Of a stretch of DNA of 64,000 nucleotides, positions 8,113 to 60,600 are shown one piece after another (position 1 is the first letter of the stretch; each line of letters begins with the position of its first letter). The position numbers and the translations under genes were made by a program. The notes below the pieces were generated by a model. That model ran no database searches and was not told where the DNA came from. It saw only the letters and a program-made list of their open reading frames with translations. The stretch lies in contig NC_049993.1 in the NCBI RefSeq assembly GCF_000003815.2, positions 20,598,637-20,662,636 on the forward strand, in the 5' to 3' direction. Source of the DNA: Branchiostoma floridae. Taxonomy: Eukaryota > Chordata > Leptocardii > Amphioxiformes > Branchiostomatidae.

Positions 8113-8294
8113 TTATCTGATCTGCTGCCGCAGTAGCGTGTTGGTTTTCTTGTCGGGGTGACTTTTTTGCGCCGGTTTCTTCTGGGGGTCGACAGCGAAA
8201 CACTTCCAGAGTCGGAGGGTCTCGTCTGCTGCGGCGGAGACAACAGTGGTGCCGTCCGGACTCATGGCCATGTGGAGCACACGGGCCTGGTGAC
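8113..8294 (-). CDS. cdc20: CDC20 coding exon 12, last blade, IR tail and stop
   Basis: Terminal coding exon, acceptor CCCCCACAG. Encodes [30 protein letters not shown], a basic linker and TLLRQQIR followed by TAA (8115-8113). The C-terminal Ile-Arg is the APC/C-docking tail of the family. A copy of the acceptor edge at about 8397-8436 has lost the AG. Confidence 0.96.
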
Positions 8295-8334
8295 CTGTGG
8301 GGGGAGGGGGCGGTCTGTTAGTGTAGTCAGACAC

Positions 8335-8396
<62 letters not shown>

Positions 8397-11300
8397 TCAT
8401 GGCCATGTGGAGCATGCGGGCCTGGTGACCAGGGGGGGAGGGGGGCGCTCGGTTAGTGTAGTCAGACACACACATACATACACGCACCTGCAAGCTACAA
8501 TCTGCAGAAGAATTGTTGAATCAAAATCATTGAAAATGTATTAACAACTTGAAATTTGACAGGGGGAAAGGGGAAGAGATAAGGCCTTGGATTAACTTTT
8601 AATGAAGAAAAATGTGATCTCAATGCCAAGTGCTGTACTGACAGTGGAGAGCAAGAGAACGGGTCTCTGCTGACGGATTGTTGTTGATGCTGTAGTTTGA
8701 AAATTGATCAACAGGGGGCGTTGCAGTACAGTGGGAAAATCTTATTAGTTATAGATTCTTGAGAAGTTTCTATACTGATATAACATGCTATACTACTCTG
8801 GGTGTGTGACATGCTCCCATGATTTTGCCTGCTACACTGGAGGCACATTGTGTAAGCTAGAGAAGAACAACAGGTCCACTCACCGGTCAGCTCGGTGACT
8901 TTAGCCATGGTGGGATACTTCCAGATGGTCAGCTGGTTGTTGGCGAAGCCGTGGCCCGAGATCAGTTCCTTATACTCCTTACTCCACAGGATAGAGCACA
9001 CCTGTAAAGGTAAGATGGACAGGTGTTAATACAGGTAAGTACAGGTATGTAGGGAGATCAGCTCCTTATACTCCTTAGACCACAGGATAGAGCACACCTG
9101 TAAAGGTAAGATGGACAGGTGTTAATACAGGTAAGTACAGGTATGTAGGGAGATCAGCTCCTTATACTCCTTACTCCACAGGATAGAGCACACCTGTAAA
9201 GGTAAGATGGACAGGTGTTAATCTTACCGATAAAAAAGGCCTGAACAGTATGTAAGGAGATCAGCTCCTTGCATAGGTATGTATGAAACAAAACCTTTCA
9301 ATGAGAAGTATACAATACATTTCTCTTCACCTTCACAGAAGGAAAACATTGTTTTTGCTCCGTTTCTTCTTCTCCAGAAAAATGAAAATGATCTGGACCA
9401 GACAGCTGTCACCATGGTTACTAGAGGTGTAACAGACACCCTGTGTGGCGAGTGGCAGGACAGCTGGTGGGGATGCTCACCATATATACGATTGTGTTAG
9501 AGTAAAAATAGTGCTAGACCATGTAAACGTAGACGTTATGAATTTGCTTGGAAAATGTTGCCTTTTAGATTCAACAAAAAGTACATTTGTTTACATGTGA
9601 CAACAGCATGTTTGTTTATTTGTGCACCTATGGCAACACGATGTTTGCATACCTGTGACTTGGTGTCCACGGTGTTGAGGCAGTGTCCCGTGTTGGCGTT
9701 CCAGAAGCGGATACAGCGGTCGGCCGTCCCACCTCCACTGGCGAGCACACTGGCCTGCCACGGACACCACGACAGTGCCTGAAAAACACAAGGGGGATAA
9801 ATTACAAACTGGCCTACCACGGACACAACAGTGCCTGAAATTCCAAAAGGAAAACAATTGATAACAGTGATAAACTAGCATTTTAACAGTGCCTTGGAAT
9901 GAATCGCACCACATTTATACACTACCTTGGGATGAAGTTTGGAAATTTTATTTGTGCTGGCCTTACCTTGACAGCTGCCTGATGCTGTGTTAGTGAGTGC
10001 AGTGGTACGTTCCCCTCCCATGTGCACTGGTACCCCCTCCCCCTGGCTGGTACCCCCTCCCCCTGGCCTTGTACCCCCTCCCCCTGGCCTTGTACCCCCT
10101 CCCCCTGGCCTTGTACCCCCTCCCCCTGGCCTTGTACCCCCTCCCCCTGGCCTTGTACCCCCTTCCCCATGCCCTTACCTTGACAGCTGCCTGATGTTGT
10201 GTTAGCGAGTGAAGTGGCACGTTCCCCTCCCGAGTGCACTGGTACCCCCTCCCCCTGGCCTTGTACCCCCTCCCCCCTGGCCTTGTACCCCCTCCCCCAT
10301 GCCCTTACCTTGACAGCTGCCTGGTGTTGTGTTAGTGTGTGTAGCGGTACGTTCCCTTCCCTGGTGCACTGGTACCCCCAGATGTTCAGGAGGTTGTCGT
10401 TGCCTCCACTTGCCAGGTAACGCCCTGAGGTAAAGATACAACAAAGGACATGTATAGAACATCATAAGTACAAAATCTCCAAACATATGTAAAACTGACT
10501 GCAGTTATAATATCAGACAACTTTCAACGCTTGGTGTTGTATTCATGCAGTTTTACAGACACAGTATGACTAAACAAAAATTACACTTCAGTCATCTACT
10601 CTAGTACCTAAGCAAATTTTAATGTCTAGTTTCTAGGCCTATGTCACGTTTTCAAACTGGGGCCTGGCTGTGCTGCTTTCAGGAATAGAAAATGGCTACC
10701 GTAGCAGCATGAAGGTTAAAAAGGGTTAACATTTTTTTACTGTAACTCTACTTATGGAGAATGGTTGGAATTTCCCTACCGTCGGGCGACCACTTGAGCC
10801 CGCAGACCTCCTGCGTGTGCCCGTCCAGCGTCGCCACGTGATGGTCCGCTATCCGCACGTCGTGGTGGTGGATCGTTCCCGCGCGGGAACCACTGCAGAA
10901 AGAAGTTGTTTGTTTGTTTGTGTTGCATACCCGTTAAACCGCCTCATAGCTCAACACATTGGTCAAGTTTGTACTGAACAGCGAAAGGGTGCCGACATAC
11001 ATTGTCAACAATCATAACAAAAGCAAAACAAACAGTGTGTGGCTTTTATGGCCGCGGATGGCATCCCCAAGCCGCATGTAGCTTCCACCAAGGATTTTTG
11101 TCCGTCAATGTTGACGGATTGGTTTTAAAATTTTTCCGTCAGACGCAGCAAATTTCCGTAAATTGACGGAGAAACGGACGCTGGCTAGAGCCCTGGAATG
11201 TACAGTTTTCAGATGGTCATCATCATCATCATCTGTCGGCTGCAGGGCGGATGGTACCCAGGCTAAATCTAACCAACATTACCTAATAAATGGTGTAAGA

Positions 11301-14300
11301 GTCTCTATTGTCCCTCAGATTGGACGTTAAATGGAGGTCCCATGTTTGAGGAGAGTCACACCGCATGCACGTAAAAGAACCCACCACACCTTTAGAAAAA
11401 GAATAGGGGCATGCCCCAGTGTGCGATGGTGCAAGCCTTACATAAAGGAGACAGCTGCCTACCCCTGTCAGGGCTCAAAATACTTTTTTCTGCATTGAAA
11501 ATTACCTGCACCAGGCAAATTTTACCTGTGCACACTACTCTGAATTTAAATTAGGAAGTATGGATCATTCTAAAACTTTGAACACTATTCCTTTATTTCT
11601 CTTCAATTTATACTTTATAAGTGGCAACAGTCAATGCAGCTGATAACAATCCATATACACCTACATAATAGACATAGGACATTTATTTATAAAAGCCAGT
11701 ACATGGACCAGTGCAGGTTAGGTGCAGGTAGACACCAGAAATACCTGCACAGCTCCAATTTTACCTGCGCATGCACTAACCGGTATATACCCAGTACATG
11801 GACCAGTACAGGTTAGGTGCAGGTAGACACCAGAAATACCTGCACAGCTCCAATTTTACCTGCGCATGCACTAACCGGTATATACCCAGTACATGGACCA
11901 GTACAGGTTAGGTGCAGGTAGACACCAGAAATACCTGCACAGCTCCAATTTTACCTGCACTAACCTGCATATACCCAGTACATGGACCAGTGCAGGTAGA
12001 CACCAGAAATACCTGCACAGCTCCAATTTTAACTGCACTAACCTGCATATGCAGGTGGTATATCGAGCCCTGCCTGTGTTAGGGACCCCAGCAGCAGTAT
12101 AATCAAATACTGGATACTACTATAGGCTACAGAGTCTTCAGCATGTTGAAGTTGGCAGCCTCAAAAGAAAGAAGAATTTTCCTGACCTGCTGAGGATGTA
12201 GACGTTCCAGTCCAGCGAGCCGACCCTCGAGGACTGGCTGGTCATGTTCCGTACTCTCTTCTGGGCCGCAACGTCCCACAGCTGGAACAATCAATCAATC
12301 AGTCCATCAATCAATCAATCAATCAGCAATCTGCACTATCTTCTAGGCTGCAACATCCTACAGCTGGAACAACACACACACACCTGTTTTAAACAGCAGA
12401 GCTGGTCAAACTATCGGTATGGAATACCCTGGACAGGCTGAGAACTACGGGATGGCTACTGATAGACTTTTAGATAGAACTCCCTAGGCCTACTAAGCGC
12501 TTTATTGGGCATGTTACCAAACAAAAAGTAGCCGTCCTGCATTTCTCTGGCTTCCAGTATAACTATGGAACAATAGACAGGTCGCAGGTCATTCATAGTG
12601 CTTCAGCATATCTGAACTGAACAACACTCCATCATTTACACTTCAACTGTTCAAACTCTAGTGGAATAAATAAACCAAAAAACAAACCTGTACTTCAGCG
12701 TTGCTGCTGCCGATTGCGAGGAAGTTTCCCTCAGCGATCCACGAGACGGCTGAGACGTAGTCCTCGGGCCCCGACATGGACATGAGCTGCTGGATATCAC
12801 CTGTCCCAGCATTCCACAGGTAAACGCTGTTGCCTAGCGCCACGGCCAGGTGGTTGTTACAGCTCCAGGCTAACAAGTTCAAGTCTGGGGAAAAACAACA
12901 ATAAAAAACAATGAACATTTATGCAGATTTTTTGATCAAGTCAAAGTCAAAGATTACAGCCAAAATTCTTCATACTTTCATTCATTCAACATCATTCTTT
13001 GATGCACTGTGGGTTATAGGTCAAAGTTCAAGACCTCTGAAACATACACCTTTACATGTTAGGGGCCTTGGCTGCTGATCTCGCACATGTGCAAACCCTG
13101 ACTGGCCTGAGCCATGTTCAACATAACTTATGAACATTTATGCAGCTCAAAGTAGTAAATAGAACATCTCCAGTTTTACAACTCAACATCTGATTCTGAC
13201 ACATAAGGATACATACATTGAAACGTTTTATCGCATATTATCCTTTCTAACGTCTTGAAGACTCACAGTAGTCGTCCAGAATCTCGGGCGCATCTAAGAT
13301 CCTCTCCGGGACCTGCGGGATGTGTCTGGTGACCTTCCGTGTGGAGGAGGGAGTCTTGGTCTGGCTGTACAGGACTCGCATGTTGTTCTGGTACCCTGGA
13401 GGGGGGAGTGGGGGGGACATTTTAGGTTTCTATTTATTCCTTTTATGTATATTAAATCAAATCATAGAGGACTGGTGGTCCCTACTCAAACTATGCAACT
13501 GCTTACACGATGATGACGCCAGCTGACAGCAGCCAAAGCCAGGCCTTCTTGAGTTATGTTCTCCATCCACAGACATACAAACATACATACACACACGATA
13601 CCAAAAACATAACCTTCCTCTCCTGGCAAAGGTAATTATTTAAGAATTAAAAAGATCGCAACATAGGTTCCTTCAATCAGTAGACTCTCTGATGCTTGTT
13701 TATTTTGATGCAGCCACAATAAGGTAACAGCGCCCCCTACCTTCCGGCGCCTGCGGTGCCTTGTTCTTGTAGGCGAGGATTTTGCTGTTGACGACGTTCC
13801 CGTTGAGGTTCTCGCTCATGGCCTCCTGGTACTGCTGCTTGGAGGGGCTCAGCATCTCCTCATCTACATGCACCTGGGGGAAACATTACATCAAACATCA
13901 GCATCTCCTCATCTACATGCACCTGGGGGTAACATTACATCAAACATCAGCATCTCCTCATCTACATGCACCTGGGGGAAACATTACATCAAACATCAGC
14001 ATCTCCTCATCTACATGCACCTGGGGGAAACATTACATCAAACATCAGCATCTCCTCATCTACATGCACCTGGGGGAAACATTACATCAAACATCAGCAT
14101 CTCCTCATCTACATGCACCTGGGGCAGATGGCGAGGAGCAACAGAATTCATCATCAGCAACAGAATTATTGGAGCCTAAAGTCCTTCCCGCAACAAATGG
14201 TGCATTGGGCAGCACCCATCTCCACTTCTGTAGCCCTGGGGCCACACAGCTTTGTGCAGTCTCTACAGCAGGGAGCCAGCACACTGGCAGTGGTGTGTGT

Positions 14301-17300
14301 TCAACTCCCTTTCCAAAATGCTGAGTGCTAAGCAGAGAAAGCAGCATGTACAATTTTTAAAGTCTTTGGTGTGACTCAGTCGGGATCAAACTCACGTAAT
14401 ACTAGTAGTCAAAGTTAAAATTCTGCAATGACTGTCATGTGTATACATAATTCAGGCTCTTACTGTTAGCTTACAAAGTTGAACAGTAATAAATAAAGTT
14501 CAAAGTTCAAGTTCAAATCTGAACTCGACCTGTACTGACCTTGTCCGCATTGCACTTGAAGTTTCCCAGCTCGAAGTTGGAGGCGGAGCGGTTGGGGATG
14601 AAGCGATCCGCCACGGGGGTTTTGGGCGTCTTCGCGTTATTCCCTGGGGTTTTAGACTTGCCTGGTAGAGAAACGGAGAGAAACAAACCTTGCAAGAAAG
14701 CCAGGGATCGAAATACTTTTTCTTTGCTACATGCAAAATTGCAAGTTGGCAAAAATTTTACGTGCAATTTGAAAAATTTACATGCAAAATACAACTAGGC
14801 GGCGATGGCGACGAGTATCGCTAGCTTGAATCGGTGAATTTTGATTACATCTAGTAAAGCTACCGGAGAAAGTTACTGGCAAAAACAAGAAAGGATAAAG
14901 AGTCAAAAGACACACGTCCATTTGTCTTTTTGTCTAAGACTAGAGTAAGAGTAGGGGGTCTAATTCCTCAGTATTTTTCCAATAGGCCAGGTATTTTCAA
15001 CATGCAAGATTGCAAGTTCAGAATAATTTTACATGCAAATCTCAAAAATTATGTGCAAATTGCAAGTTAAGTATGTGTATTTCGAACCCTGAAAGCTCAT
15101 GTATAAGGCTTGAACAAGGAAGAACTTGGGTGTCTGAGTCAGACGGACTATGATGCAGTGAGTTTAAATGAGACAAGAAACAAGACTACTTGGGGTGGGT
15201 ACCGCTACAGAAAATTAAGGTTCAGGTTCAGGTCCGTACCTGAACCTGACCTGAAATGAAAACTTGTGAATTGGCAATTTTCAAAACAATGGTCCATTTC
15301 TGTACAAAGGAGTCTGTTTGGTGGAGTAATTCTGGCCCTGCAATTTTTTTTTCAACATAAAAAGCGACAGAGAACGTTTGGTATCATCGAGAAAAAAGTA
15401 AGAACAGGAATTCCAACATTCAAATCAAGTATTCAAATTCTCAATACAGTGCACTCGGCACTTGCATTAAAATGATTCCTTCTTCACAAATTTTTATCAG
15501 AACACCTGTTTCCAACATTATCAAGGCCCAGATATGACATAATGACTTGTACAGACACAGGTGAGTTCCTCGGCCGCCGTTACCTGGTGTTTTCGACTTG
15601 CGGCCGCTCCTGGGCGTCTTGGCCTTGCCGGGCGTGTGCGAGGGCGTCTTGGCGGAGGCGCGATTGGAGGTCTTCATGGGCGTGCAGCCCGACACGTTCA
15701 GGGACATGTTTCTGCAGCTGGAGTTCAGCGAAGTGTTGTTGCTGGGGCCGCTGGGGAAACATTAAACACAAAAGTTAAAGCAGTCGTCCTAAACTGAGTG
15801 CTCTCGACAGGGCTTTTCAGCTTAGGCTTAGGGGCTGCTACTCTGTGATTTGGATCCCCTGTGCTGTGATTTGGATCCCCTATGCTGTGATTTGGATCCA
15901 CTACGCTGTGATTTCGATCCCCTATGTTGTGAATGTGTGATATGGGGCCTCTTTGCTATGTTTCAACCAAAGGGGACTGTTCTGTTCGCTAAATTTGGTT
16001 CAAAAATTAGTCAAAATGCAGGAGAAAGTGTTTCTAAGACTAAGGGCTAAAGATTTCAAGATTTTCAGGGTGAGGATTTTGTGCCTATCACTCAGGGCAG
16101 TCATGGGATCTGTTCCCCAGGGTAAGGGGGCACAGGATCAAGGCATGAGGGCGGTGTAGTGCCTCTATACACCTTTCTCACGCGGCGGCCATCATAGACT
16201 GAAGACGAGGTCAATGGGGCAAACAGACAAAACTTATTTCTAAAATCAGCTCCCATTTAGTTTTTCGCCAGACCACACCAATTTTCACAATTATAAGATC
16301 AGATAATAAATATTATAACCAACATGTTATGCAACAAAATATGTAGCAATTTAGACTCGCGTACTGATCCCATATTCCTTTAAGAGATGCAAAATAAAAA
16401 CATAACAATGCCAATATTTCACGGACATGCAGCCATTCTCTTATTGGTCAATTTCCTAATTTCCATGCTATCATTGGTTGAACTACTAATTATGATGGAC
16501 AGTCTTTTGTTTGCCCCATTGGACTCGTTTTAGATCTATCATGGCCGCCGCGTGAGAAAGGTGTATAAGCTCACTTTAGGCAGTTTTTCCCCACACAAGA
16601 TGCCAGGACGCATTTAGTAAGAAGTTGTCGGGGACCCCGCTGAGTTATCGGACGAATACTCCAGATGTGTCGGGGGAAATTCTGCCTACATCTATGACAA
16701 TAAGATTTCTATCTCTGGATGCCAAAAAAACTGCCGGCGACCTTCTTATTCTTCTGTGTAAAGCCCACATTCTGATATCATCTCCGCAGATGTGGGGATG
16801 AACGTTGCCTAGATTGGGCCAAACTCTCCTTCTAGACTCTAGACACAGCCCTACCTTTTCCCTGGGAGCCAGACAGTACCGGGTAGCTAGCGAATTTTGT
16901 TCGGAGACCCAATGCAGTCAGCCCGCAGATCTCACATTAGTGCTCCGGGGGAGTTTAAGCCTGAAGGAGTTATCGCTACCTAAGGGTAGATAAACTGTCC
17001 TAGCTGCCCGATCCTGGCTGGCTCCCAGGGTACCCTGCCTTACTCACGGTATCAGGACAACTCGGCACCTGGGACAACTCGTCCCCAGTCAATCAGGACG
17101 ACTCGGCACCTAGCCCAGGACAACTCGTCCTCTAGTTTAGGACGTGTCGGCACCACATATACTCAGTACATCATCTGTGTAATTTGGGCTCGTAAAACAC
17201 TTTTAATGATCTTGGAGCTCTAGTCGATCTCATGACTATACTTTTCACTTTGCTAGGCAAATATTTTCATAGCGTCGGCGAACTTGGGTGCGCTCTGAGC

Positions 17301-18650: not shown

Positions 18651-18710
18651 AAGTTGCGTCCAAACGCTTGGCTTCAGGTTGAATGCACCGGTCCAACCCA
18701 CGCCGCCCGC

Positions 18711-42600: not shown

Positions 42601-45600
42601 ACATTCGTAATGCAGAAGTGACAAGAGAAGAAAAGCCAAAACTTATACCAGATACAGCTAGTAGGTACCGAAGACAGATAGCGTAGTAACTTTAGTTTCT
42701 ACACATTCCTAGTGAATTATTTTCGCGAGTCTTGTAGCTAAGATTATGTGTTATTTTGAGAATGAATGCAGCACCTAAGGAATGCGTGTTTGCTGCATGT
42801 TTATGTATGTAAGAAGGCATGACTCAGGTTTATCTTACCTACAGAGCTGCAAGCTGAACAAGTATTTACCAACTCTGATGTAGACATAGGATAAACATGT
42901 CCTTGTGAACAGGAAGTGAGTAAGGACCCAGTCTCATTCGTGGTGTGACAGGTTTTCCACAGCAAATCTGGGACATTCTGGGAACATTCACAGAAATTTG
43001 GTTGTCTAATGATGAAAAAGCTGGAAACATTTTTGCCATTTTCGATCTCTTAACACCAAGAATACGTATCCGCTGTATGACTACTGTACCATGGCATTGT
43101 TTCAGACATAAAGTCAAAACATTATGAAATCCTCCTTTGCCATCCGTCCAAAAAAATAAATCAACAATTGTTTCTTTGGAATCATTATCCCATATATACT
43201 TTTACTATCAAAATAAAACAGTGCAGTTGCAGTATAGCAAAAAGCCTGTACATTGCAGGGCTGTCTTCTTCAACCAGGGACGGAAATGTACATATTAAGA
43301 CAAACAAAAATGTCAACTAGTCTGTCCCAAAAATCTGAATTTGATGATGTGCAATCGATGAAAAATTTACTTTTGTAAACTTAAAATCACAGATTTGACA
43401 ACAGAAAATTTAACAGCATGGGCTCCCAGACAATGAGTAGGATGGAAAAGATCTAAAGCTGGAGGCAGTCCTGGTACTCTAGAAAAGAACAGCAAAAGGA
43501 TACTTTAAACATTTTGAATCAGAACTGATGTTTTTGCCTAATCTCCAAGCAGATCCACGGTGGCGTAATATAGTATCAAACCCACCCTCCGGTGCCCGTT
43601 TCACTCCCGTTTGGCCGGCCGTATTCCTTGGCCAGCTTTGATACTATCTTAGGGCACCGTAGGATCTGCTTGGAGATAAGTTTTTCCTGTTGTGTACTCA
43701 CCTCTGTTCTCTCTGCCTCTAGATGCAACAGCCACTCCAGCTGTAAGGTCGGCGCGCTCGACGCGACCTTCGGCGGCGACCCCTGCCCCAAAACCTACAA
43801 ATTCCTGGAGGTCCATTTTAAATGTCTCACCCACAGTGAGTAGTTGTCATACCTCCGGTTCCTGCTGTCGTTCGTGTCCCGCCTGCCCGCACGCGCATGC
43901 ACACACGTACATACATGCACGCCCCCTACAGGCTCAGCCCTGTACTCCACCCTGATCAGTCATGTTGCCATTTTTCGATTTTCGATCCTGTCTGTATGTA
44001 GATGTAACAACCGCACTCAGTGTGTCGTGCCCGCCCTCGACGGGGTGTTCGGCGAGGACCCCTGCCCGGACACCTACAAGTACCTCGAGGTGTTCTTTCG
44101 TTGTGTGTCCAGCTGTGAGTACCCTTCCCATCATGCCTCTGGGTACCCATCATGCCTTGGGTGCCCGCCTCTTTCCTCTCCGCATGCACACTCACTCCAT
44201 TCCTGACATCTCCATTGTCGCATGGGGCCACCAAGTCTAACCAGAAACCAGCTCCGACACCATGTAGAGTAGGCAGAGAGGCTCTCCGCAGCTTGTGGTT
44301 GAAGTTTGAACTAATCACAGAGTCTGAACAATAACTCACCGTTAAAGTAAACAAAACATGCAGTAATGCTTGGATCCATTGGAAGAAAAAACTTTGTAAT
44401 ATTGCATAACAGCTAGTTTCTAAAAACTTTGTTAATTTGACAATTGAGTAAAGTGCAAAGATACCACATGTAATTCAACCTTGCAAAGTAATTGGCAGTT
44501 GAAGCTAGTATGACCAAACATTGTTATGGACATGTCTCTTACCAGTTGTTTTTTCCAAGGCATCCAACCATGCTGCAAAAAAAAGTGACTTTAATATATA
44601 AGGATTTGTGTGTTTGACTAACTTCTTACTAAGTTAATCTACAAATAACTTTTGCAAACTGCAAGAAGCAGAAGGAAGACATGATGTAACTTGGTGGGCT
44701 AGCAGGTGGCTTCTGGGAAGGTTTGCGGATGTCTTAGACACACTTAGGGTTCCAAGGATGTGTTTTAAGATGTGACAGCAGGTAGCAAACGTCTTCAGTG
44801 TTGAAGAGAAGGAGGGGGGTTAGAAGTAGACCCAGTATGCAGGGTTGGACAGGTTTTCTAAAATTTACTTGTCCTATCGGGCATGTACGTGAAAAATTTA
44901 CTTGGCCGAACCATCTTTTCACTTGCCCAAAATTCAAATAACATTTCTCCGTGTATTTTCACTTCCATGTAGTGGCATTCTATTGGCTGTATTTTTCTCT
45001 GTTGACTATAGCTTGATGCCACGACTGTGAAAAGTAACAAGTACATGTTTATCAAAATCTCACTCGTGGAAAAATCTTACTTGCCTGATCGGGCAAGTGG
45101 CAGAGGAAAAGTGCTTGCCTGATCAGCTCTTTCAGTTGCCCAGGACAATCGGGCTAGTGGACTTGTCCAACCCTGGTACGTCTTGATGTGTTGATGTGTA
45201 ATTTACCCACGTTAGTTTTTGAGTGCCCGGGCACGCTGGAGTCCGTGGGCAGGCCGGAAACCCTCACACAGATGGGAACGAAGATCGGCAGCTGGTACAG
45301 AGATCCGGTACCCGGAGTCGACAAGGGCAAGATCTACGTCATGCCATGGCGACCGTTTAACACGATCAGCGTCGACGAATACGCTGACATCGACGACCTG
45401 AAAGACTTGAAGCCGTCGCGTACGATCCCGTTGCCGGATAAAGTCGATGGGACGGGGTTTGTGGTTTACGACGGCGCCGCGTATTACAACAAGGAGAGAT
45501 CACCCAGCATCATCAAGTTCAACCTCTCAACCCTGAATAGGGACTTACAGAAGGAGCTTCCGGGAGCAAGGTACCACAACGAAGCGCCGTATCGTTTTGG

Positions 45601-48600
45601 CGGGATGTCGGATATCGACTTAGCGGTGGACGAGAACGGATTGTGGGCGATCTACGCCACCGAGGAGAGCGAGGGAAGAATGGTGATCGCGAAACTCGAT
45701 CCGGATTCCCTCGCCGTAGAGAAAACCTGGGAGACGAACTACAACAAGCGCGCGGCCACGAACACATTCATGGTGTGCGGGAAGCTCTACGTGGTGAGCA
45801 CGCGATACGTCCAGCCGGTGGACACAGGAGGGAAGCTGGTGTATGTTTATGACACAAGCACGGGAGACGGCGAAAACCTTGACCTCCCGTTCTACAACCA
45901 GTACGGCTACAACACCCAGGTGGACTACAACCCACGCGACAACTCTCTCCACGTCTGGGACAACGGGTACCTCCTCTCGTACCCGCTAACGTTCGAGGCT
46001 GGTAAGTCGGGTGCTGCGTGGGCCATGTCCACAGCATGGGGTCACGGTACCCTTTTCTTAACGAGCGTGCGCTAATTAACGATGCACCGTAATGTCCATG
46101 GCTGACTGGCCTGCATGGGTTTAAGGATTAAATTGTAACTGCAGAAAAGCGTTAAGCTTTGGTGGCAAACTTAAACTTTAAGCACGTCAACCAGAAATTG
46201 TAAATCTTGACTGGCTTGTGAAGCAGAATATGTTTGTAAAGCTGAATATGACGTTGTAAAGAATAACTACAGAGTGATACTTAAAAATGATAATTGCATG
46301 CCTCTCCGTGCCTTTGAATATTTTCTGCTTGGAGACAACACCTGAGTGAACATTGTTGATGAACAAAATCGTTGCAGCAAAAAAAAATGTAAGTTGTTTG
46401 ACTTTCCGTCCCCAAATACTACAGAAACACATTTTCTTACCGATTTTACTTAAGGATAAGAATGTAACATTTTTTTCATCCCAACACTAAGAAAGTTTCA
46501 TATTTGTTGGCCAGTTCCAATTGCCAGATGCCAAACTGTAAGAAAATATTTATTTTGAGTGGCATTTATCAATCAACAGCATGTGAAAACAAGCGTTGTC
46601 TCTATCAGAAACAAGTTCCTGACATCTCTACAAACCTTTTTTCCACAATTTTGTAACGAGCCTCCTTTCCTAACAAACTCCCTTCTTTTTTAGTTGGCTG
46701 GCTGAAGCCTGAGTTCTCGCTAACCTAACAGATCTGCAGTATGACTCCCCTCTCCCTTCTCTCAGCTCTTACAACAAGGGTTCATACCCTGGATAGTTTA
46801 GCCCTAACATAGCAGACTTACATTTACCATTGCATATATAGTACAGTCTACGAGTTAGTGCTACCAACAAAGTCACACACAAAAGGCTGATTTTTTATCT
46901 TGGCTACTGTCTATACATTTGTAAAAGAACAAGATGATAATGTCTTTGCTTTTTGATATCTGTTTGGCACATTTCCAGTGTTTTTAATGCTTGCCAAGTT
47001 TTGGATAAAGTACTAAGCATGCTGTAGTACCCCCCTCCCCACCCTAAAACTTGAACAATAAGCCTTGGTTTCCACACGTAGTGAGATATTTTCAGGACCA
47101 TCAGTTATGTCATGTTTATGCATGGTCACGACTTCATCTTTTGTTGCTGCATTACTAAGACTAAGAGATGTTGCCATTTGTTTTGCGACTTTTGTAACAT
47201 TTCCGTTTTTGCCATTTTTTGTTCCATTTTTCGTTGCTTCCCGCTAACTGTGACCATTTCACAGTAATGAAGTGTTGCCATGACAATCATGGGAGTTCTA
47301 GTGATTGTGTTGTTGCCACGGAAACCATAGATAATGTATATGTTTTGCCAGGGAATGTGGTTTTGTCATATTCACATGGCTGAAACAGAATATGCCGCTT
47401 TTGCTCCATTTTATGTCATTTTCATGATGTTTTGTTTATTTTCGTTTGTTTGTGCTGAATGTGATGTGATCTTGTTTGTCAAGTTGCGTTTGTATGCCTC
47501 CCTGTTTTATGATAATTATAGCATGTTGGAATGTTTAGTAGGAAATTCCTCTCTGTAGCAATTGTGTTTTTCCCTGAAAGATTATGAGGAACTATTTCTA
47601 AATTGCAGTGTTTTCCCTCCCGTTAACTTGGCATGGTGGCTCCAGTAAAATCTTATTCCTACCACCATGCTGGTAAACTCACAGCCATGGGTAGTTTTTA
47701 TGCCCCAGACTATGAGCATCTTTCTGAACCCAACAGAAAGGCAGTATGGATAACAAACTGGAGTCACCAGGCCTTGCTAAAGGGTGGGGAAACATTGATG
47801 TTATGTAAGATATCCTAGTTCATTGTAATGTAAACAGGGGGTTCGTTTTTAAGGGGCGAAAGATTGGAAACTAACTTTTCTACAATTCTACAATCTAAAT
47901 TCTCATCCCATTCAAGTTTTTGGCCCTGACTCCTTACAAAATGGACCCCCTGGTGTAGGGTTAATTTTGGGCACATGTGGACTGTGTTTTACATGTAACG
48001 TTAAGGTATTCATGAAAAATGGTGTGACCTTGACGATATCCTGTTCAGACAGTGGTATGCAGTAGTTTGATAAGCGAGATTGACCAGTGTATGTGTTTCT
48101 TGTATATTCCTAGTATCTTCATAGTATGACTTACATGTGTGTGTGGGAAAATGACCGTCACAGACAGTGTTGAAGCTGTATAGGGAAGTTGTTAAGTGTA
48201 AAGGGTTCTGCCCCTACTTCAGTAATATAACATTTACTGTATTGTACTTCTACTATTTGAGTTGATTAGTACTGTATTATTGTTGGGTTGACATTTCTAA
48301 GTAGGTTTTTAGGGTATAATTGTAAATGGATAGATCATAATAATAATTAATGATCATAGATTCGTTGGTAAAATTTAAGAGTCAGTTATATGTACATTGT
48401 ACTACTCTCCATGGGATCATTGTGAAAGTTCAAGTGACTACCCAAACAGAATATTCTCTAAGGGATCATAGCAGAAGTTCTTGTTACCACCCAAATAGAT
48501 GATTCACTAAGGGATCATTGGGAAAGTTCATGTTACCACCCAGACAGAATCTTCTCTAAGGGAACATTGGGAAAGTTCATGTTACCACCCAAACAGAATC

Positions 48601-51600
48601 CCCACGCCACGCCATGTAGTCTGTCCTCAGCTGACGTGTAGTCTCGTCATTTCATCATCAACCAACCGCCATGTCCGCCTGTGTGTGCGTCCGTCCGTCC
48701 TTCCGTCCGTCCGTGTCTGTCCCTCACAGCTCTGCTGTTACATAACAAACCTGTCTGACATTGTGACTAATCAGCTCACTTCTTAGAGTAAGGTGTTCTG
48801 TTTCATGTTTGTTTAGTAAAAAGAGTGTTCTGAAATGTAATTTCAGCATGAAAACAGAGCCTGGGGGAAGATTGTACCACTTTTTCAGGTTTTTCCCCAA
48901 AACAGCCTCTGTTTCCATTTAGTTGTTTTCCTCAATTTTATTTGGAAATGTCCAAATCCAAGGAAGGTAAACCTGAGTGAATTCTCTTCATATAGAAACT
49001 GCCCAGAACACCTTGTTCAAAGAAGCCTCTAACCAAACATCAGTGATCTGAAGAGAAATGATCTGATTCCAAAGAAAAAAAAGTGATGAATCACGAATCA
49101 CAGCAAGAAGAGGAAAAAAGTTTTTCTATTCAAACCAGTCTCAGTGCTGTTTTCCTAAATTTGCACTAATGCTTCCAAGTCCAAAAGTGGTATATTTTTT
49201 TTGAAAACCTGGAAAGCCTTGAGTCTCCTCTCAGAGAAGTGGTAAAAAACTGAGACTGTTTGAATGGACAGACTTTCATCCTGTTGTATGTAGACTGCTA
49301 ACCCTGTCAGCATGTGGCTTGCTAGTGTAGTACAGTAATATTGTGTAGTCTTGTAAAACATGATTTAACTGTGATTATAACTTTGTGAAGTAACATTGTC
49401 TGTATTACACAGATTGTAGCAGTGTTTCTTATAACACCACATAGACTGTAGGTGTAGCACAGCCAACCAATGTGTGATTACAATCAGAAATCGCTGCAGT
49501 AGCAAAACTTTTCTTCCTCTCTTCTTCTCTCTCTCTCTTACAATCACTTCTACAACCTTCCGACGTAATTTTTCTGATCTCTTGTTCTCGACTGGTACTA
49601 ACCCACCTGTGTTTAAGAAGTGGACAGGTGTAGTAAAGACGTTGCTGTTTCTGCAGTGCCCACAGAGCCGCCCCCCTCCCGACCCGTGTCTCCAGATGTT
49701 CCCACAGTGAACCCAGACAAAGAAGGGCTGATCACAACCCCGGCACCGATACTACAGCCAACAACCCAAAACAGGTGAGATGTGCTGGCTTTATTGAGTT
49801 GCATGGACTGAAGTTTTTACCTGAATACAATAAAATGTGTGTCGACGAAGGTTGGACACCCAGGTAAGAAGGCAACAGTTATTGAAGCAACTGGAAAAGA
49901 TAAAAGAAAAACAGATATCAGACAATACAATGAATGCAGAGGACAGTTATACTCAGATTCTGAATTGGTTACCCATGGCTGCCTAAACCATACTTGTTTA
50001 ACTGCCATTTGAAAGTATCTATTCCATTCTGTAATAACAAATTTATTTGGGCCAGACTGTCTCTAGCTTTTTCCATCCCACGTTGTTGATTTTTCTTTTT
50101 AAAATTGTCATTCTATGCTCATGAAAACAGATTTTCAACAGTTTTATGTCATGAAGATTTTTGGGATAGATGGGTAATGTATTTTTTTTTGCCGTCCTGG
50201 GATGAAGGGATGGGTCCTGGAGACAGCCTTGCTTTGGACACAGATTTGACAAATATAGATTGTGTTTATCAGTCAGCTTGTACCTCCTGACAGGTGTGTG
50301 TGTGTGTACAGATGTGTGGCATGTCAACAGGGACAGGTCTGTCAAACATGTGAATAATCTGTTCTTCGTCTGTCAGCATGTCTCCTCACACCTGTGTAAA
50401 CGCCACTGCTATTATGTTATCCACCCACGACTATTCTATATATGCTAAGTCAGATTTAGAGATATTTTCTGCACAGTGAGGCAGGACTGCCATGCTTACA
50501 CATGTAGTTTAGATGTTCTTACTGTTTGCCTTTAAATGATAACTAAATTTGCACATCTCAGTAAAACTACAACACAATTAAAAGCAGTATGTTGGATAAC
50601 CCTGGCTAGGGAGAGACAAACCTGGAGACAACTCTTTATCTTCATGGCTACCTTGTCCCTCCAGCGACCTGGAGGTCAAGGGACTAGGTAGGTAGGTAGG
50701 TACTGTAATTCACTTTGTCTTCACGGTACCAAACTTTCACCGTCTGAGAAAATTTAACTTGCTCTCGGAACTAAATGTTCACTGTCGAGGCAAGTGCACA
50801 TAAAAAAGTCTGTGAATTGTTATCAGTAATGATAAGTTCACGTTACAGTCGTCACCGTGAAAACCGTGAACATAACAGTTCTTTGAAAAAATCAGGAATT
50901 ACAGTATGTTGTTGACTGGTCTAGGTTAAGATTGGAGTGGTCTTGGGCAGATTTTGCCAGTAAAATCATATATTGTAGGATTGTCAGGTGTGTCACTGAT
51001 ATGGACAGGTGTGTTGGTGAAGTATCAGACAGGACTCTTAAGTCACTGTTACAGGTATGTTCTCATTTTCGTGTATTAGGTAACAAGTAGGTGAGTCACA
51101 GTTAGAGACAAGTGTGTTAGGTAACGATTCAGGTGTCAGAACACCTCCACCTGCACCCGCTGATCTTGTATTCTAGGATGTTGGTCTCCAAGGCAGAGAC
51201 CTTATGTCTGTCATGTGCGACAGAGACATCTGGAGGGACTTCATAGTGTCACCTGATAATGGATGACTGAACTGAACTGTAAGATTGTTATCTGATGCAT
51301 TTTCTCTGCTATCCTCAGACCGGAGCCGCCACAGAGGCCAGTGTCCACGCGGAGACCGCCCGCTCGACCCGCTACCACAACCGCTGCGCCGGTCGGTCCA
51401 CAGAGACCGGACACGGTCACCGCCCGGACCTCCCCGCAGCCCACCGCGCCGGTTTCCACGACGACCGAGGAAACGCCGGCGTTCCTGCAGCAGTTCTGCC
51501 CGCCGATGTTTGCCAGGAACATCAGCTGGCCGAGAACGCCGGCGGGGGAAGTCAGCAAACAGCCGTGCCCTCCTGGGACTGATGGAGGTGAGTAGAGCTA

Positions 51601-54600
51601 GGAAAAGTTCTAGTGTTATGATACAAGATACAAGCTTGTCTTATTGCATAGCACAGTGTTGCCACTGAATTAAAACCTGTGAAAACTAGAAAGGCAACAT
51701 TTTTGCCAAAATTCACAAATGTTTTCCCTCTAGCGTTGTGTCAAGCTACATACAACACTGTACCTGGTCCATTAGGCTTGCCCCAATGTAGTGTGTGCGA
51801 GGGAAAAAAAGAATCGGGGCTATGGATTGGGGTATCTGAGTTGCCTGACATGATAGCAAGTCCAGGTAGACAGCCTTTTCTGCAAAGCTTTTCTGTTGGG
51901 AGGAAAAAAGAACATACCAGCAAAAACAAAATGTTTTCTCCTCAAAAAAACATTATAAAGATTTTGCAAATGAGTCAAGATTTACAGCATTAAGCCCTGT
52001 GAAGTTGTGTTTTGGATAAATGATTCTTGTCTGTTCAACTAAGCAAGATTTCTTGTGACCTGTTGACCTTTGACCAGGCGTGGCCACGTGGCGTTGCGGG
52101 CGGAACCCCGTCCAGTGGAGCACGGCGACCCCTGACCTGACGGACTGCACCTCGCGCTGGGTCGCCGGGATCAACCGCAAGATCCGAGACGGGGAATCGG
52201 CGCTGGAGATTGCACAGGTCGCTAAGTGTTTGCATTATGTATAGAATGTTTTCGTAGTATTACGACTTTTAACTGTGCAATTGATGATTAATTTAATGCA
52301 TACTATATATATATAGAATGGTTTTAGTATCACGACTATTAACAAAGTGACCACAATCTATGATTGATTTAAAGTATACCGATATGTATAAATTTTATCG
52401 ATTTTTTTAAAAAGAATATATAAGTGTTGGTTGTTACATTATCATTAAGTTCTTACTGTGCATGTAACTAGAATTTTTTATCATCAACAGTTGTTTTGCC
52501 TACGAAGCTGCTACTTGCAATGTGTCTTCAAGAAATAAGAACCATTATTATTATAATAACAGGATCTGGTGGGGAAGATCACGGAGAGCCGTGAGATCTA
52601 CGGGGGAGACGTGAAGAAGGCTGTCAAGATCATGGACCAGCTGGTCGTCCTGGTTACCAGCCAGGTGCAGAACATGGAGCCGCAGGACAAGCAGGAGAGT
52701 CTGAACACCTTCACTCAGGTGAGTTACTGTCATAGATGTGGACAGGTGTGTTCTTATCTTCGTGTATCTGGTAACAGTAATGGGATTCAAATCCACATTT
52801 CCACTTGACAGTTTTTAAGTCATCAGTAACAACGTGGTGTCAGAAGTGGGATTCAGACCCATGCCCCCATTTGACAGTTTTTAAGTACTTTCCCCCCCTC
52901 CAGACAGTGGTGGAGGCTATGGTTTCCAAGTGCATTTATTTATTTTTCCCCCCTACAGACATTGGTGGAGGTTATGGTAAGTGTGCTTTAAGTCTTGATA
53001 AGTAAAAGATCATTCCTCCCTGCAGACCCTTGTGGAGGCTGGGAGCATGCTGCTTGACGAGGGCAGAGTGGAATCCTGGGAAGACATGTCTGCGGGAGAA
53101 CAGTCCATCTCCGCGACGACGCTGGTGAAAACCGTGGAGGAGAACGGGCTGCTGCTGGCGGAACACCTCCCGCCCAGACGCAAGGTCACCGCCACCGACA
53201 ACAACATCGGTGAGATACCTAGACATAGTGTAGTCTTTACACAAGGTCACTGCGACCGACAACAACATCGGTGAGATACCTAGACATAGTGTAGTCTTTA
53301 CACAAGGTCACAACAACATCGGTGAGATACTTAGACATAGTCTAGTCCAGCGTTCCCGCCAGGTTTTTGAAAGTATGCGTCCAAATATTTGGGAGGGGCG
53401 TAATGAGCGCCGTAGGCGCGAGACGAGCGCCGCAGGCGCTCGCATTCTAGGGGGGTCCGGGGGCATGCTCCCCCGGGAAAATTTGGATTTTCAAACCCTC
53501 TAGAACACAATTTCCTGCAATTTGAGAGGATAATCATGTACTTGAGATTGGATGTCGGTTGCCTCTTTTACTCCCATTTTCAGTTATCGACGACCACCCT
53601 CTTCATCAAAATACGTAATATTAAACGTAATTAAAAACAACTGTAAGCACAGGGAATCAGCCTTCCGTGATCTGGCCCGGGTATTATTTGTCCAGACATA
53701 TCTATATGAAAATTTTGGATTTTTGATGCTTCGAAACAGGGCTCTAGCGGCCTAGCCTGTCCGTCAGCCCGTGAAAAAAATTCTGCCAATTATTTTCCGT
53801 CATTGAAAAAAAAATGTCTAACGTTTCCTCGTGCGATCGATGTTGCGCCCTCCCGCATCAAAAATTTTTCCGAGACGATAAAATAATGGCGCCATCACAC
53901 TTTGTGTCTTTTTTCTATTTTGCCCGATGATTTTAGTCAAATTTTTTGAATCGGTGGGGTTTTACAAGGCCTTGCCGTCATTTTCCACGAGCGTGCGTTT
54001 GTTCCTGCGACCTCAGGTAACCCCGTTTTCGGCGTGAAATCTTTGGCTGGATTTCTTTTTAAATAGATCAAGAACGTTATACATTACTCGAGGAGGACGA
54101 TCTGCTGCCTCTTTGGCAGTGATCATTGCCGGTGTAACCTTGAAGCAGTAGCCAGAAAGACGGCGCTGCGATCGACGGTCCGTCTGGGGAGGGGGGCGTG
54201 CCGTGACATGTGCCACGGAGTGCACAGCCGACTCGATCGACGCTTGACAACAATATTGCGGCCCCTTTTTCTGCCGCAAATTTTGTCTTTTTGAAATAAA
54301 AGAAATTTTGTAAATAAGAAATAAAGTGTATAGTTTTGGATTCTTCACTTATTTACCGCGCACCGTTTTTTGTTAGCTTTTGTTTTTTTCCGGTGACCAA
54401 TAACAGAGTGCAACATTACATTTATCAAACGCTGATTGGTTATTAAGATGATTGGATTTGGACCTGGTGGCCAATCTAGACTGCTTGGCGCTAGCGGCCT
54501 GTTGTCAAAGATACCGACTGCCAATCAACTGCCCACAGTATGAGAACTTTTGTTGAGATGTGCAGCACTCGCGCAGAGCAGTTTGCTTGTTCAATACTAG

Positions 54601-57600
54601 TATTACCCACAAATCTTTAACAAATACGTGAAACTGAGGACAAGTAAGTATCATGTTAATATCAGAATATAAAATCTGCATAAGATTTCTTCGAGTGTTA
54701 AAGAATGCTGACTGTCAGACGTATTTCACGGACTACAAAAAATTACATTGCGCAACGGACAGCTCAGACTGGCGCGTGGCTGGGTGTGTCGCACATGGGT
54801 CCGCTAGTTGTAAAGCGTGCCGCGCTCCGCCCCATGCCCAGACTACTAGGATGACCGGAAAGTGAAGAATTTGAAGTATAAATTGTAAAGGTAGGATTCC
54901 TTCGTATAAAGACAGATTTTTAAAAAGATTCCAGATACATTTTGTACACTGGTGGTACAGGTCAGCCTTTCTTTCATATTTTTTTATGGACGCATTCAGC
55001 CGAGCCGAGTGCGTCTTTCCAGAAAAAAATGCGTCCAAAGACGTAAAGACGTATGCCTGGCGGGAACGCTGGTCTAGTCTAAACACAACGTCACTGCGAC
55101 CGACAACAACATCGGTGAGATACCTAGACATAGTGTAGTCTTACACAAGGCCACAACAACATCGGTGAGATACCGAGACATAGTCTTGTCCAAACATTGG
55201 TGAGATACCTAGACATAGTTTAGTCTAAACATCAGTGAGATACCTAGACATAGTCTAGTCTTTACACCGCCACAGACAACAACATCGGTGAGATACTGGG
55301 CTGGTCTTATTTTGGGAGTATCTTTGATAAGTTTAAGGTCCATTTCCTATTGCTAACATTACCAATCTGTAAACTTAAAGAACAAGCTAGTCAATGCCAC
55401 TGACAACAACAGCCGTAAGGAACTTACAGTTCAGAACATTGGCCATAGAAACATTTTTTAACGTTTTTAGCTTTGCAGAGAATCAAGTATTGGAACATTT
55501 TAAAACACCAGCTCGTGCCTGAATACCTTAAAACACACTAACCCCTGTTGTTCCTATGTTACAGCTATGGAGGTGTTAGTTGTTGACACTACAGGTGAGG
55601 TAGAAGACATGTCCTTCCCACTTGCACACACCTGTACACATCTGCACACACCTGCACACACCTGTACACACCTGCACACACCTGCACACTCCTGTACACA
55701 CCTGTACACACACTAACCCGTGTTGTTCCTATGTTACAGCTATGGAAGTGTTGGTTGTGGACACCACAGGTGAGGTAGAAGACATGTCCTTCCCACTTGC
55801 ACACACCTGTACACATCTGAACACACCTGTACACACATGTACACACACTAACCCGTGTTGTTCCTATGTTACAGCTATGGAGGTGTTAGTTGTTGACACC
55901 ACAGGTGAGGTAGAAGACATGTCGTTCCCACCTGAAGGAAACGCCATCTCTGATGTCATCACCTTACCTGGGCCCAGCATCAAGGCACACGGGCGCAACG
56001 GTACAAACTCTACTCCACTGTCAGAGTCAAAGATCTAAATTTGTAGTACAATGCTAAACTTTCTGTTGGTGTCATTTGAATGTGTTAGGAGTTTTTATAT
56101 GCCCAGTTTTCTCACACTAGAAATAAGTATTGTGTCAAACCTAAATTGCCTTGACCAGTCTTATTCGTCAGGTCAGGAAATACTGAAAACTGTTACCTGT
56201 GAGAAACAATACAGTAGTGACAACTACATATGCTTACGAGAAAGAATGGGGTAATTTTGCTTTTTACAATCAGTGGGAGAATAACTTTTAAATGAAAGAT
56301 TACTTTGGATACATTTTCATGATTAAGAGTTTCCCCCTGCCCCGTAGGTAACAGTGAAAGTTATGTTTGTGACGTACAACACGATGGATTGCTTCCAAGT
56401 GAAAGGTGTTAACAATTTCCTTTTCCTCCGGTCCGTAGGTACAGCGAAAGTTGTGTTCGTGACCTACAGCACGCTGGGTCGCTTCCTGTCGTCCAACAGC
56501 CCGACCCACGGAGACATCAACTTCGTGGACAGCTCAGAGAGGATGCTGGGAACGCGGGTCATCGCCGCCTCCATCAACCGGCTGGAGCAGCAACAACTCC
56601 TGCCGGAACCTGTGGTTTTTACTCTGGAGCATACACAGGTGGGTACAACTGGAAATGTAGGGATGGGGTAGTTACTGTTACAGAAGAGTCAGGTACAGGT
56701 ATGGTCCAAGTTCAGAGGATCAAGTAGAATCTAGACCTGATTGCCTGTAAAAATTTCTGCATGGACAATATTTAAAACAATGGTCCATTTTGGTACCTCT
56801 AAGAATTTTGAATGAAATCTTACACTGATTGCTGATGTCACATAAAAAAAGGGAAGGTGACGTCCCAAAGCCTTTGATAGACTATAAGAGTAGTGGGTTT
56901 TAATCCACTGTTACTTGGACGCAGCATTGTATGTATGGTGGAGCCCATCCTTTCAATGCCTTGATAGTTACACCTGGGTGCACCGGTGACCTCTCCATCT
57001 TGTGGCATAAAGAACAGGTTGACACAGAGAAACCAAAAACTTTCAGTGCTGATGATGAGGTCTGATTGATTGTTTCCTTATTCCTCACAGGAGAACGTTT
57101 CTGGTCCTCTCTGCTCCTTCTGGAAGTACGAGCCACTGTAAGTATGAACACCTTTCCTTACATGATTTGTATTTTTTATCTGGTACAAAATCAGGGCTCG
57201 AAAGACTTTTTTCTGTCTTTCTGACCTGCCCTGGTGCAGGTAACTTTTGAAGCACTAGAAAAATGTTACCTGCATTCAAGTATATCCCTAAAGTGGATAA
57301 AACAACTTTTTGACCTTACCTACACAGCCCAACTTTTACCTGCACTAATCTGCATATGCAGGTGGAATTTCGAGCCCTAAAAATCTACCATTTTAGAGAA
57401 GCTTTTATTCATGTCTGTCACTTATCTGCATTTCTCTTAGATGAAACATGAAAGTATTTTCTCTGCTACAGAGAATAGTTCTAATACTGTATTTTCCTTA
57501 TCCTTGCACAGTGTTCTGATTGGCTACTGGTCAGGTGAGGGATGCAGCGTCGTGGCGACCAACACCACACACACCTCCTGCTCCTGTAACCATCTCACCA

Positions 57601-60600
57601 ACTTCGCTGTACTCATGGACACTCGTGGAGTCAAGGTACCAACAACATAACCCCAACATAACCCTTACCCAACACACCCACACAGTATAGCATAACCCTT
57701 ACCCAACACACCCACACAGCACAACATAACCCTTACCCAACACACCCACACAGTATAGCATAACCCTTACCCAACACACCCACACAGCACAACATAACCC
57801 TTACCCAACACACCCACACAGCACAACATAACCCTTACCCAACACACCCACACAGCACAACATAACCCTTACCCAACACACCCACACAGCACAACATAAC
57901 CCTTACCCAACACACCCACACAGTACAATATAACCCTTACCCTCCTGTAACCATCTCACAAACTTTGCTGTGCTCATGGACACCCGCGGAGTCAAGGTAC
58001 GAACAGCATAACCCCAACATAACCCTTACCCAACACACCCACACAGTACAATATAACCCTTACCCAACACACCCACACAGCACAACATAACCCTTACCCA
58101 ACACACCCACACAGTACAACATAACCCTTACCCAACACACCCACACAGTACAACATAACCCTTACCCAACACACCCACACAGCACAACATAACCCTTACC
58201 CAACACACCCACACAGCACAACATAACCCTTACCCAACACACCCACACAGCACAACATAACCCTTACCCAACACACCCACACAGTACCACATAACCCTTA
58301 CCCAACACACCCACACAGCACAACATAACCCTTACCCAACACACCCACACAGCACAACACAACCCTTACCCAACACACCCACACAGCACAACATAACCCT
58401 TACCCAACACACCCACACAGTACCACATAACCCTTACCCAACACACCCACACAGCACAACATAACCCTTACCCTCCTGTAACCATCTCACCAACTTCGCT
58501 GTGCTCATGGACACCCGCGGAGTCAAGGTACAAACAGCATAACCCCAACATAACCCTTACCCAGCACACCCACACAGTACAATATAACCCTTACCCTCCT
58601 GTAACCATCTCACAAACTTTGCTGTGCTCATGGACACCCGCGGAGTCAAGGTACCAACCTGCCATACAATGTAGAATTTGCTGTTAGTTGATTTGGCATT
58701 TCCAGGGACAGATACAATGTTGTTTAAGCTGCCAACACCCTCCATATTTAAAGTATAAGCATGTCTAACTCCTCAAGCACAGGGAACAAGCTCAGCAGAG
58801 TGAGTCTGTGAGTTTGGACAAGAGTATACCAAATTTACAAGGCATTTCACTGTTTTGGTTCTCTTGTCCAAACAAGTAGAGAAAATACAAGTGTTTGTTT
58901 ATTTATTAAACGTTTATTTGTTGTTCCCCAGCTGGCCAGCACCCATGTTGTGTTCCTGTCTGCAATCACCTGGGTGGGGATGATCATCTCCATCTGCTGC
59001 CTCTTCTGTGCTCTCATCTGTTTCTCCATATTCAGGTGAGTAAAACACTGACTGAAACATGCGTACATTGGTCACAACTGTGGCATTCAAGTAGTGCTGG
59101 AAAAGGACAAAACATTTTTTATGTGATATCTGAAAATATGATGTTGAATTGGATTGCAAATATCAGCTTCCTGATGCATTTCAGTTTGATATTGAGCTGT
59201 CATTGTTGGATCATACGTGGCTAAAATAGTGGGGGAAAAAAGAAAATCTCTACCAACTAACTCTTCCTATCCGTGTATCATACAAGGTCTGAAGGCTATA
59301 TGCTTGAAATAGTGGACAAGGAGCATAGTAGACATGAGAAAATGAGAATGCTTCTTGTAATAATAGTAGAAGTTGTAGCTGCAGCAGTAGTGGCAGTAAA
59401 GGAAGTAGAAGTAGTATCCGATACTACTGCTGCAGGGGTTTCTAACATGAGTGGTAAGAATGCAGCTAAATCGCCATGAATGGAAATATTGGAAGCTACT
59501 GGACTCAACCAATAGACTATAACCAACCCCCAAATTTCAATGAAAATCTTGTCACAGAGGTTATGTTTTACGCAGTTGCTTCCTAGTTGTGTTGAGTTTT
59601 ATTTGACATTGTTTTCCTGTCTACAGAGGTTTGAAGAGCGACCGTAACACGATACACAAGAATCTGTGCTTCAACCTCATCATCGCAGAACTCTTCTTTC
59701 TCATCGGCATAGACAAGACACAGTACCAGGTGGGCAAGGCTTGATTGATTAACTATATGATTGATTGATTAACAAAATGTCTACAGAAGTCCTGTGGTCT
59801 TTAGTTGTGTGACAGTGAGTACTGTTCCAGACTTATCTTCAAGTTTTCAAGTCATATCAGCTAGTGTCCACATTGTAATGTTCCTGTGCAATTCAAATAA
59901 AGTCAGAGTCTGTACAATTCCTTAGAAATTGCAAGCTTCCAGATGTGCTTGAGTAAGAACGAACAGAGCATTAGTTTGTTAAGTTAGGGTAGACGACGTT
60001 TGCTTGTAAATGTTGCCTTTGTAGTTAGACTTTTCCCCATTTTTCATCTAGGTGGGCTGTCCCTGTGTCGCCTTGTTCCTGTAGTTGCATAGTTAACCTG
60101 TACTGTTATGTGTTACACTGACTGTGTGATGTTCCCAGGTTGCTGTCCGGGTGTCGCTGCTATCCTCCANNNNNNNNNNNNNNNNNNNNNNNNNNNNNNN
60201 NNNNNNNNNNNNNNNNNNNNNNNNNNNNNNNNNNNNNNNNNNNNNNNNNNNNNNNNNNNNNNNNNNNNNNNNNNNNNNNNNNNNNNNNNNNNNNNNNNNN
60301 NNNNNNNNNNNNNNNNNNNNNNNNNNNNNNNNNNNNNNNNNNNNNNNNNNNNNNNNNNNNNNNNNNNNNNNNNNNNNNNNNNNNNNNNNNNNNNNNNNNN
60401 NNNNNNNNNNNNNNNNNNNNNNNNNNNNNNNNNNNNNNNNNNNNNNNNNNNNNNNNNNNNNNNNNNNNNNNNNNNNNNNNNNNNNNNNNNNNNNNNNNNN
60501 NNNNNNNNNNNNNNNNNNNNNNNNNNNNNNNNNNNNNNNNNNNNNNNNNNNNNNNNNNNNNNNNNNNNNNNNNNNNNNNNNNNNNNNNNNNNNNNNNNNN

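Follow-up and report, generated by a model that had tools for sequence, protein, structure and literature searches.

The window analysed here, 64,000 nucleotides of the Branchiostoma floridae genome (contig NC_049993.1, positions 20,598,637 to 20,662,636 of the forward strand), contains a CDC20 gene and a latrophilin-like adhesion G protein-coupled receptor (GPCR) gene, and in both of them splice junctions are duplicated into the adjoining intron. Gene models were made with a spliced aligner of our own, using human CDC20 and ADGRL1 as protein guides. The CDC20 model has 11 exons, covers everything from the N-terminal region through the stop, and matches the CDC20/Fizzy WD40 family in Pfam (WD40_CDC20-Fz, E 2.7e-133); the latrophilin model has Pfam matches to SUEL lectin, OLF, HRM, GAIN, GPS and 7tm_2, which supports the gene identities given in an initial annotation of this DNA. 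An assembly gap at about 60160-61134 falls inside the latrophilin gene, of which 12 of the 18 exons, with 22 junctions, entered the tests described below.

A junction was scored as spanned when a local alignment crossed it with at least 8 bp on either side. The sensitive search returned a match at 11 of the 58 exon ends in the window, and junction-spanning matches were beyond chance, with E values as low as 1e-48. Clear duplication into the adjoining intron was found at 5 of the 20 internal CDC20 junctions (one donor and four acceptors) and at three latrophilin junctions (two donors and one acceptor), giving 8 strong cases in the window (Table 1), and both acceptors and donors are affected, as had been stated before. 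The initial annotation had claimed 13 duplicated boundaries, 7 in CDC20 and 6 in latrophilin; the duplications are real, but only 8 of them are strong (5 and 3), a comparison made by totals because its sites were not listed. The remaining three latrophilin matches are weak or belong to a whole-exon pair: the one at 44001 represents a whole duplicated exon with its partner at 43722, that at 52763 is 35 bp long and 1.7 kb distant, and that at 53025 covers 26 bp with an E value of 0.015. The low-complexity filter took out none of the 123 window alignments. BLAST reported few short-period repeats, and Tandem Repeats Finder (TRF) was therefore used as a control; the unit sizes it assigned to the window arrays were 49, 61, 96, 130 and 135 bp.

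Two of the CDC20 cases are single spare copies separated by an unaligned gap. For the latrophilin donor motif GTGAGATAC we counted 8 junction-like units in two clusters, a number that includes the true one and makes the earlier figure of up to about nine units a fair one. The AG and GT dinucleotides, described before as intact in the copies, are so in all window copies except the spare of the CDC20 acceptor at 8294, which has lost its AG. Whole exons had been said not to be duplicated; this holds for the junction arrays, which contain part of an exon, and fails for the latrophilin pair 43722/44002. A mobile element as the source of the CDC20 unit was rejected, the unit being present at one genomic place only. 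The window arrays are amphioxus mirages, a kind already known, at loci that are new. The parallel drawn earlier with the amphioxus Adh locus is correct, and 'mirage' is the published term (PMC3087553).

The latrophilin donor array is split by a 1.7-kb insert at 53348-55071. Its inverted ends are identical over 16 bp (CAGCGTTCCCGCCAGG), the target duplication of 8 bp reads GTCTAGTC, and the insert resembles a hAT-type DNA transposon. In the same gene, 43709-44114 holds two tandem SUEL-lectin exons with an AG of their own each, which are candidates for mutually exclusive exons. Outside both genes, long minisatellites lie at 3852-5366 (41 bp x 36.7) and 22801-23342 (29 bp x 18.4).

Table 1. Genes, junction duplications and related features of the window, in window positions.
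Feature	Position	Strand	Remarks
CDC20 gene	8116..15711	-	11 modelled coding exons, most upstream uncertain; spliced alignment to human CDC20
CDC20 junction duplication, acceptor of last exon (exon ends 8294)	8259..8482	-	one spare copy, 8394-8482, 90% identity
CDC20 junction array, acceptor of exon 8884-9001 (9001)	8958..9270	-	three 96-bp units; AG retained in both spares
CDC20 junction array, donor 10308/10309 of exon 10309-10424	9958..10379	-	spare GT copies at 10178 and 9966; 21-bp sub-repeats in between
CDC20 intronic array touching no junction	11696..12050	-	95-bp units; counter-example within the same gene
CDC20 junction duplication, acceptor of exon 12187-12281 (12281)	12253..12372	-	single 38-bp spare, 87% identity
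CDC20 junction array, acceptor of exon 13741-13873 (13873)	13849..14124	-	49-bp unit x 5.6, 99% matches
Latrophilin-like adhesion GPCR gene	40018..63931	+	18 exons of the model used, some ends of which are uncertain; human ADGRL1 served for the spliced alignment
Latrophilin tandem whole-exon pair	43709..44091	+	43722.. and 44002-44114; 72% identity; exon duplication, no junction array
Latrophilin junction array, donor 53209 of exon 53026-53209	53178..53349	+	61-bp unit
Latrophilin 53209 donor array, second half	55072..55297	+	1.7-kb insert lies between the halves
Latrophilin junction array, acceptor 55874 of exon 55875-56000	55525..55934	+	spare AG copies at 55564 and 55739
Latrophilin junction array, donor 57635 of exon 57512-57635	57581..58658	+	spare GT at 57996, 58527 and 58650; 34-bp sub-repeats in between

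The placement of such duplications was evaluated on 552 junctions of the same genome, 322 from 12 genes and 230 from myosins. The genes were located by exon matches to Pfam families or known proteins, irrespective of repeats, with the exception that the MCM match list already hinted at the MCM2 copy before retrieval. From 13 modelled genes we kept 12 (CCT3, CCT4, CCT5, CCT6, CCT8, TCP1, MCM2, MCM6, MCM7, ATP1A1, part of PRPF8, and VCP), the score cut having removed the MCM locus on C17 (score 741) as well as L065 (score 257). The 30 myosin loci were merged to 21, of which 17 were kept after four failed the cuts, and exons shorter than 30 bp were removed. Junction-spanning tandem duplications were present outside the window in 5 of the 12 genes, namely CCT6, MCM2, MCM6, PRPF8 and VCP, which extends the habit first described as shared by two unrelated genes. 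In MCM2 (L055), a 134-bp array of 3.9 copies with 96% matches occupies 8461-8976 near the 3' end, with four modelled junctions inside it and an uncertain exon structure. The model had put exons inside this array, hence its four junctions were excluded from the copy-level statistics together with the weak latrophilin 52763, leaving 31 of 36 junctions; in the family counts the array is one family.

Each duplication family was counted as one event. Families were found on exon-masked sequence, so that conserved exons cannot aid detection, and the unmasked alignment was then checked for junction crossing; in the null, a unit of the same length was placed randomly within the same gene. The 12 genes yielded 34 families, of which 19 spanned a junction against 6.5 expected; with the 17 myosin loci added, the observed count was 19/35, which none of 200000 simulations reached, against an expectation of 6.5. 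Changing the E-value cut-off to four other values left 17 to 19 spanning families, and the excess was also kept with a flank requirement of 15 or 20 bp per side (18/34 and 17/34), and after leaving out in turn each of the nine genes having families, being weakest without PRPF8 (11/23 vs 4.7). A second null, using random intronic sites in repeat-collapsed introns and unmasked families, was exceeded as well: with the window genes included, 33 of 55 families spanned a junction, where 300 draws averaged 11.4 and never went above 20, and with them removed the count was 24 against 9.2. Under a strict null, in which the unit is the full offset and introns are collapsed, 19/35 families still compared with 10.0 expected (141/200000 simulations). 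In the sampled genes, exon edges carry long-unit arrays some two to four times as often as chance would predict.

Under the strict null the excess resides in arrays of at least three copies, 12 of 14 of which span a junction against 3.3 expected (18/22 vs 5.0 with the window genes), while two-copy families are at chance (7/21 vs 6.6; 8/24 vs 7.5 with the window). Families with an intron identity of at least 90% were also enriched (8/12 vs 3.3), and those with an offset above 200 showed no junction excess (2/9 vs 1.7). As an independent caller, TRF placed 11 of 17 arrays with a period of at least 40 bp on a junction against 4.8 expected, and for periods below 40 bp it showed no excess (1/22 vs 0.5). 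Spare junctions and units are equal in number, give or take about one, in 13 of the 18 junction arrays with multiple copies, indicating that the founding unit held the junction; on the same counts we rejected invasion of the exon by an intronic repeat array. Counts disagreed in four (MCM2 acceptor 5905, PRPF8 acceptor 3979, VCP acceptor 10482 and latrophilin donor 57635), and one array was not judgeable.

Across 36 junctions in 7 genes, 91 of 94 spare dinucleotides were retained (acceptor AG 47/50, donor GT 44/44), and the splice scores of spare sites were mostly similar to those of the true sites. With codon positions taken from the model's own frame, the mean mismatch between true and spare copies over 31 junctions was 13.5% in intron, 13.3% at codon position 3, 5.6% at positions 1+2 and 2.8% at the dinucleotide. 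Positions 1+2 thus change at about half the free rate, as expected if the true exon alone is constrained, so the copies look near neutral and the spare sites are not purged. The nearest spare could be used in frame without a stop in 3 of 31 cases; in the other 28 it brings a frame shift or an added stop. Unit lengths in multiples of three showed no excess (12/31). CAG/CTG was frequent at exonic breakpoints (19/31 vs 9.8), yet the idea had been drawn from acceptors and is not claimed; donors alone gave 5/10 vs 3.3 (P 0.22).

Judged by eye from coordinates over the sampled genes (L049-L064) and the window, genes with junction arrays are located no more than about 6 Mb from the end of a contig, or else on C76, an unplaced contig, and most array-free genes lie further inside contigs, CCT5 and ATP1A1 being exceptions. 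Near-equal chaperonin-exon matches (profile 50-112) occur at C19:6925341 and C19:12481796, 5.5 Mb apart on opposite strands, and are possibly a duplicate or an unmerged haplotype.

These results suggest that arrays are placed non-randomly and that the first duplications may be random. We regard it as an even call that mirages, with units mostly of about 40-360 bp enclosing a splice junction, go back to random founding duplications, and that junction arrays then grow or persist more often. A duplication over exactly one splice site would keep the exon beside its own site and put the spare junction into the intron, where it would be tolerated, and one inside an exon would not be. In exon definition, splice sites are paired across a short exon. 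The spare copy would accordingly be ignored, as splicing would pair the two sites that bound the exon; with similar site strengths position would decide, and the true site would always be selected. Thereafter the spare copy would drift neutrally. Founding duplications would be placed randomly, and junction-bearing arrays would subsequently expand or last longer than intronic ones. As the process we infer preferential growth, rather than a survival or sampling effect, and growth that depends on junctions reads the pattern best, though unproven. That long-unit minisatellites need splice junctions in order to grow, with something tied to the junction, for instance co-transcriptional splicing, R-loops or exon-bound chromatin, driving expansion, is a tentative proposal that we would put below even.

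Several points weigh against this explanation. The comparison set beforehand, of junctions with random intronic positions, gave no excess: the 12 genes had 27 spanned junctions out of 322, compared with 14.1% for intron positions and 8.1% for exon positions, and in the window 11 of 58 exon ends stood against 43/150 random positions in CDC20 introns, 25/150 in latrophilin introns and 27/150 in intergenic sequence. The two tests disagree because spare copies fill introns. The position-level comparison is conservative since these copies swell the covered intron, and an n-copy array adds n covered intron units and one true junction, so this test is not the sole verdict. Among the myosins, 0 of 230 junctions were spanned and the sole family found touches none, so the habit is not universal as a genome-wide one; some genes appear rich in mirages and others free of them. 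The numbers are small, with 35 families outside the window, of which the 19 junction-spanning ones lie in 5 genes, and genes differ strongly. The ratio of multi-copy to two-copy families is 12:7 at junctions and 2:14 in introns (p 0.005), but with offsets of at most 200 bp only it becomes 11:6 and 2:7 (p 0.097), leaving preferential growth insecure. TRF counts include arrays that TRF had split. The nearest spare lay on the intron side at 31 of 31 junctions, a placement largely forced because the true junction was defined by its attachment to the exon body. If junction arrays survive longer, since deletions may not take away the true site, this could add to the excess, and correct splicing at these loci is assumed by analogy with published cases.

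A plain by-product of common random tandem duplication is a tenable account, though less likely than not: junction arrays would merely be tolerated, and the excess would come from survival and from detectability beside conserved exons. The random rate of two-copy families and the position-level rates without excess agree with it, as does the density of duplication families outside both window genes (5 families over 7.9 kb, 15 over 22 kb), which is as high as in the array-bearing introns of the genes. It does not sit well with an excess that remains when exons are masked and at an intron identity of at least 90%, and that is strongest in arrays of at least three copies. The initial annotation had proposed instead that duplication is nucleated at junctions. 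On such a view, first duplications would arise preferentially at splice junctions or exon edges, for instance by way of R-loops, repair or pausing where composition changes abruptly. The enrichment of families with high intron identity speaks for this, and so does the tendency of the junction to sit centrally in the unit (28 usable junctions out of 31; standard deviation 0.218 vs 0.289 for uniform; P 0.0075), but a Kolmogorov-Smirnov test of this centring was not significant (p 0.157), and under the strict null there is no excess among two-copy families, the class that comes nearest to initial events. We therefore consider nucleation unlikely; array growth or survival fits better.

Reservoirs of spare splice sites, also proposed there, are doubtful, and selection for them as a reserve or for robustness is highly improbable, even though nearly all spares retain the dinucleotide, most score like true sites, and dinucleotide divergence is below that of positions 1+2 (signed-rank p 0.006, on skewed two-base counts to which the test is ill-suited, so that selection on spare dinucleotides was rejected as a claim). 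The exon parts of the copies diverge like unconstrained DNA, and in 28 of 31 cases splicing to the nearest spare would disrupt the reading frame or bring in a stop. In population-genetic terms the benefit of a spare site is about the per-site mutation rate, too small for selection. An assembly artefact, in which unmerged haplotypes of a very polymorphic genome pose as local duplications visible mainly at conserved exons, is hardly credible. The window does contain N gaps, and two-copy families could arise in this way, but the excess lies in arrays of at least three copies, which is impossible from two haplotypes, and PMC3087553 and PMC3902484 report published mirages confirmed by trace data, haplotypes and reverse transcription PCR (RT-PCR) for globins, and by re-sequencing for PGBD5.

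The preferred reading, random founding followed by growth or persistence at junctions, turns a gene-by-gene anecdote into a testable question of where tandem repeats grow. Every mirage junction also offers a natural experiment on how splicing chooses among near-identical competing sites, in which the exon-proximal site must win. If junction-driven expansion is true, genes would be a main source of junction copies for intron and exon evolution.

Mirages have been reported one gene at a time since 2002 and are possibly general in cephalochordates (PMC3087553); the amphioxus cases are Adh3, the globins BflGb6 and BflGb9, TnC and PGBD5 (PMC3087553, PMC3902484), those of PGBD5 and troponin C coming from PMC3902484. 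These papers describe tandem copies of exon-intron boundaries at acceptors and donors, AG/GT retained in many, and units from tens to about 160 bp with one to several spares; regular splicing is backed by RT-PCR for the globins and Adh3 (PMC3087553). The arrays described here agree: the repeat unit crosses an exon-intron boundary at 8 window junctions, the layout is minisatellite-like and tandem with units of tens to hundreds of bp, and splice dinucleotides are present in many, not all, copies (91/94). They differ in that the loci (CDC20, latrophilin, CCT6, MCM2, MCM6, PRPF8 and VCP) are new and that rates, placement against random expectation and copy divergence were estimated from one assembly; for some published cases haplotype or somatic instability and RT-PCR are on record. 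No genome-scale count of mirages was found in the literature searched, as far as its accessible text goes.

Two other systems share some of these traits. Intron gain by tandem AGGT duplication (the Rogers model, with potato RdRp and Drosophila cases) likewise starts from a tandem duplication bearing splice signals, and there the duplicated pair forms both ends of a new intron. The lancelet copies, in contrast, lie within an existing intron and copy one intron end only; the spare copies of the 8 window cases are inside the intron and away from its other junction. Tandem exon duplication, as in mutually exclusive exons, also copies coding sequence locally, and the latrophilin pair 43722/44002 is such a case, the only one found here. 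The lancelet junction arrays, unlike it, contain part of an exon only, 12 to 124 bp, and this exonic part is shorter than the full exon at all 31 of the 31 junctions.

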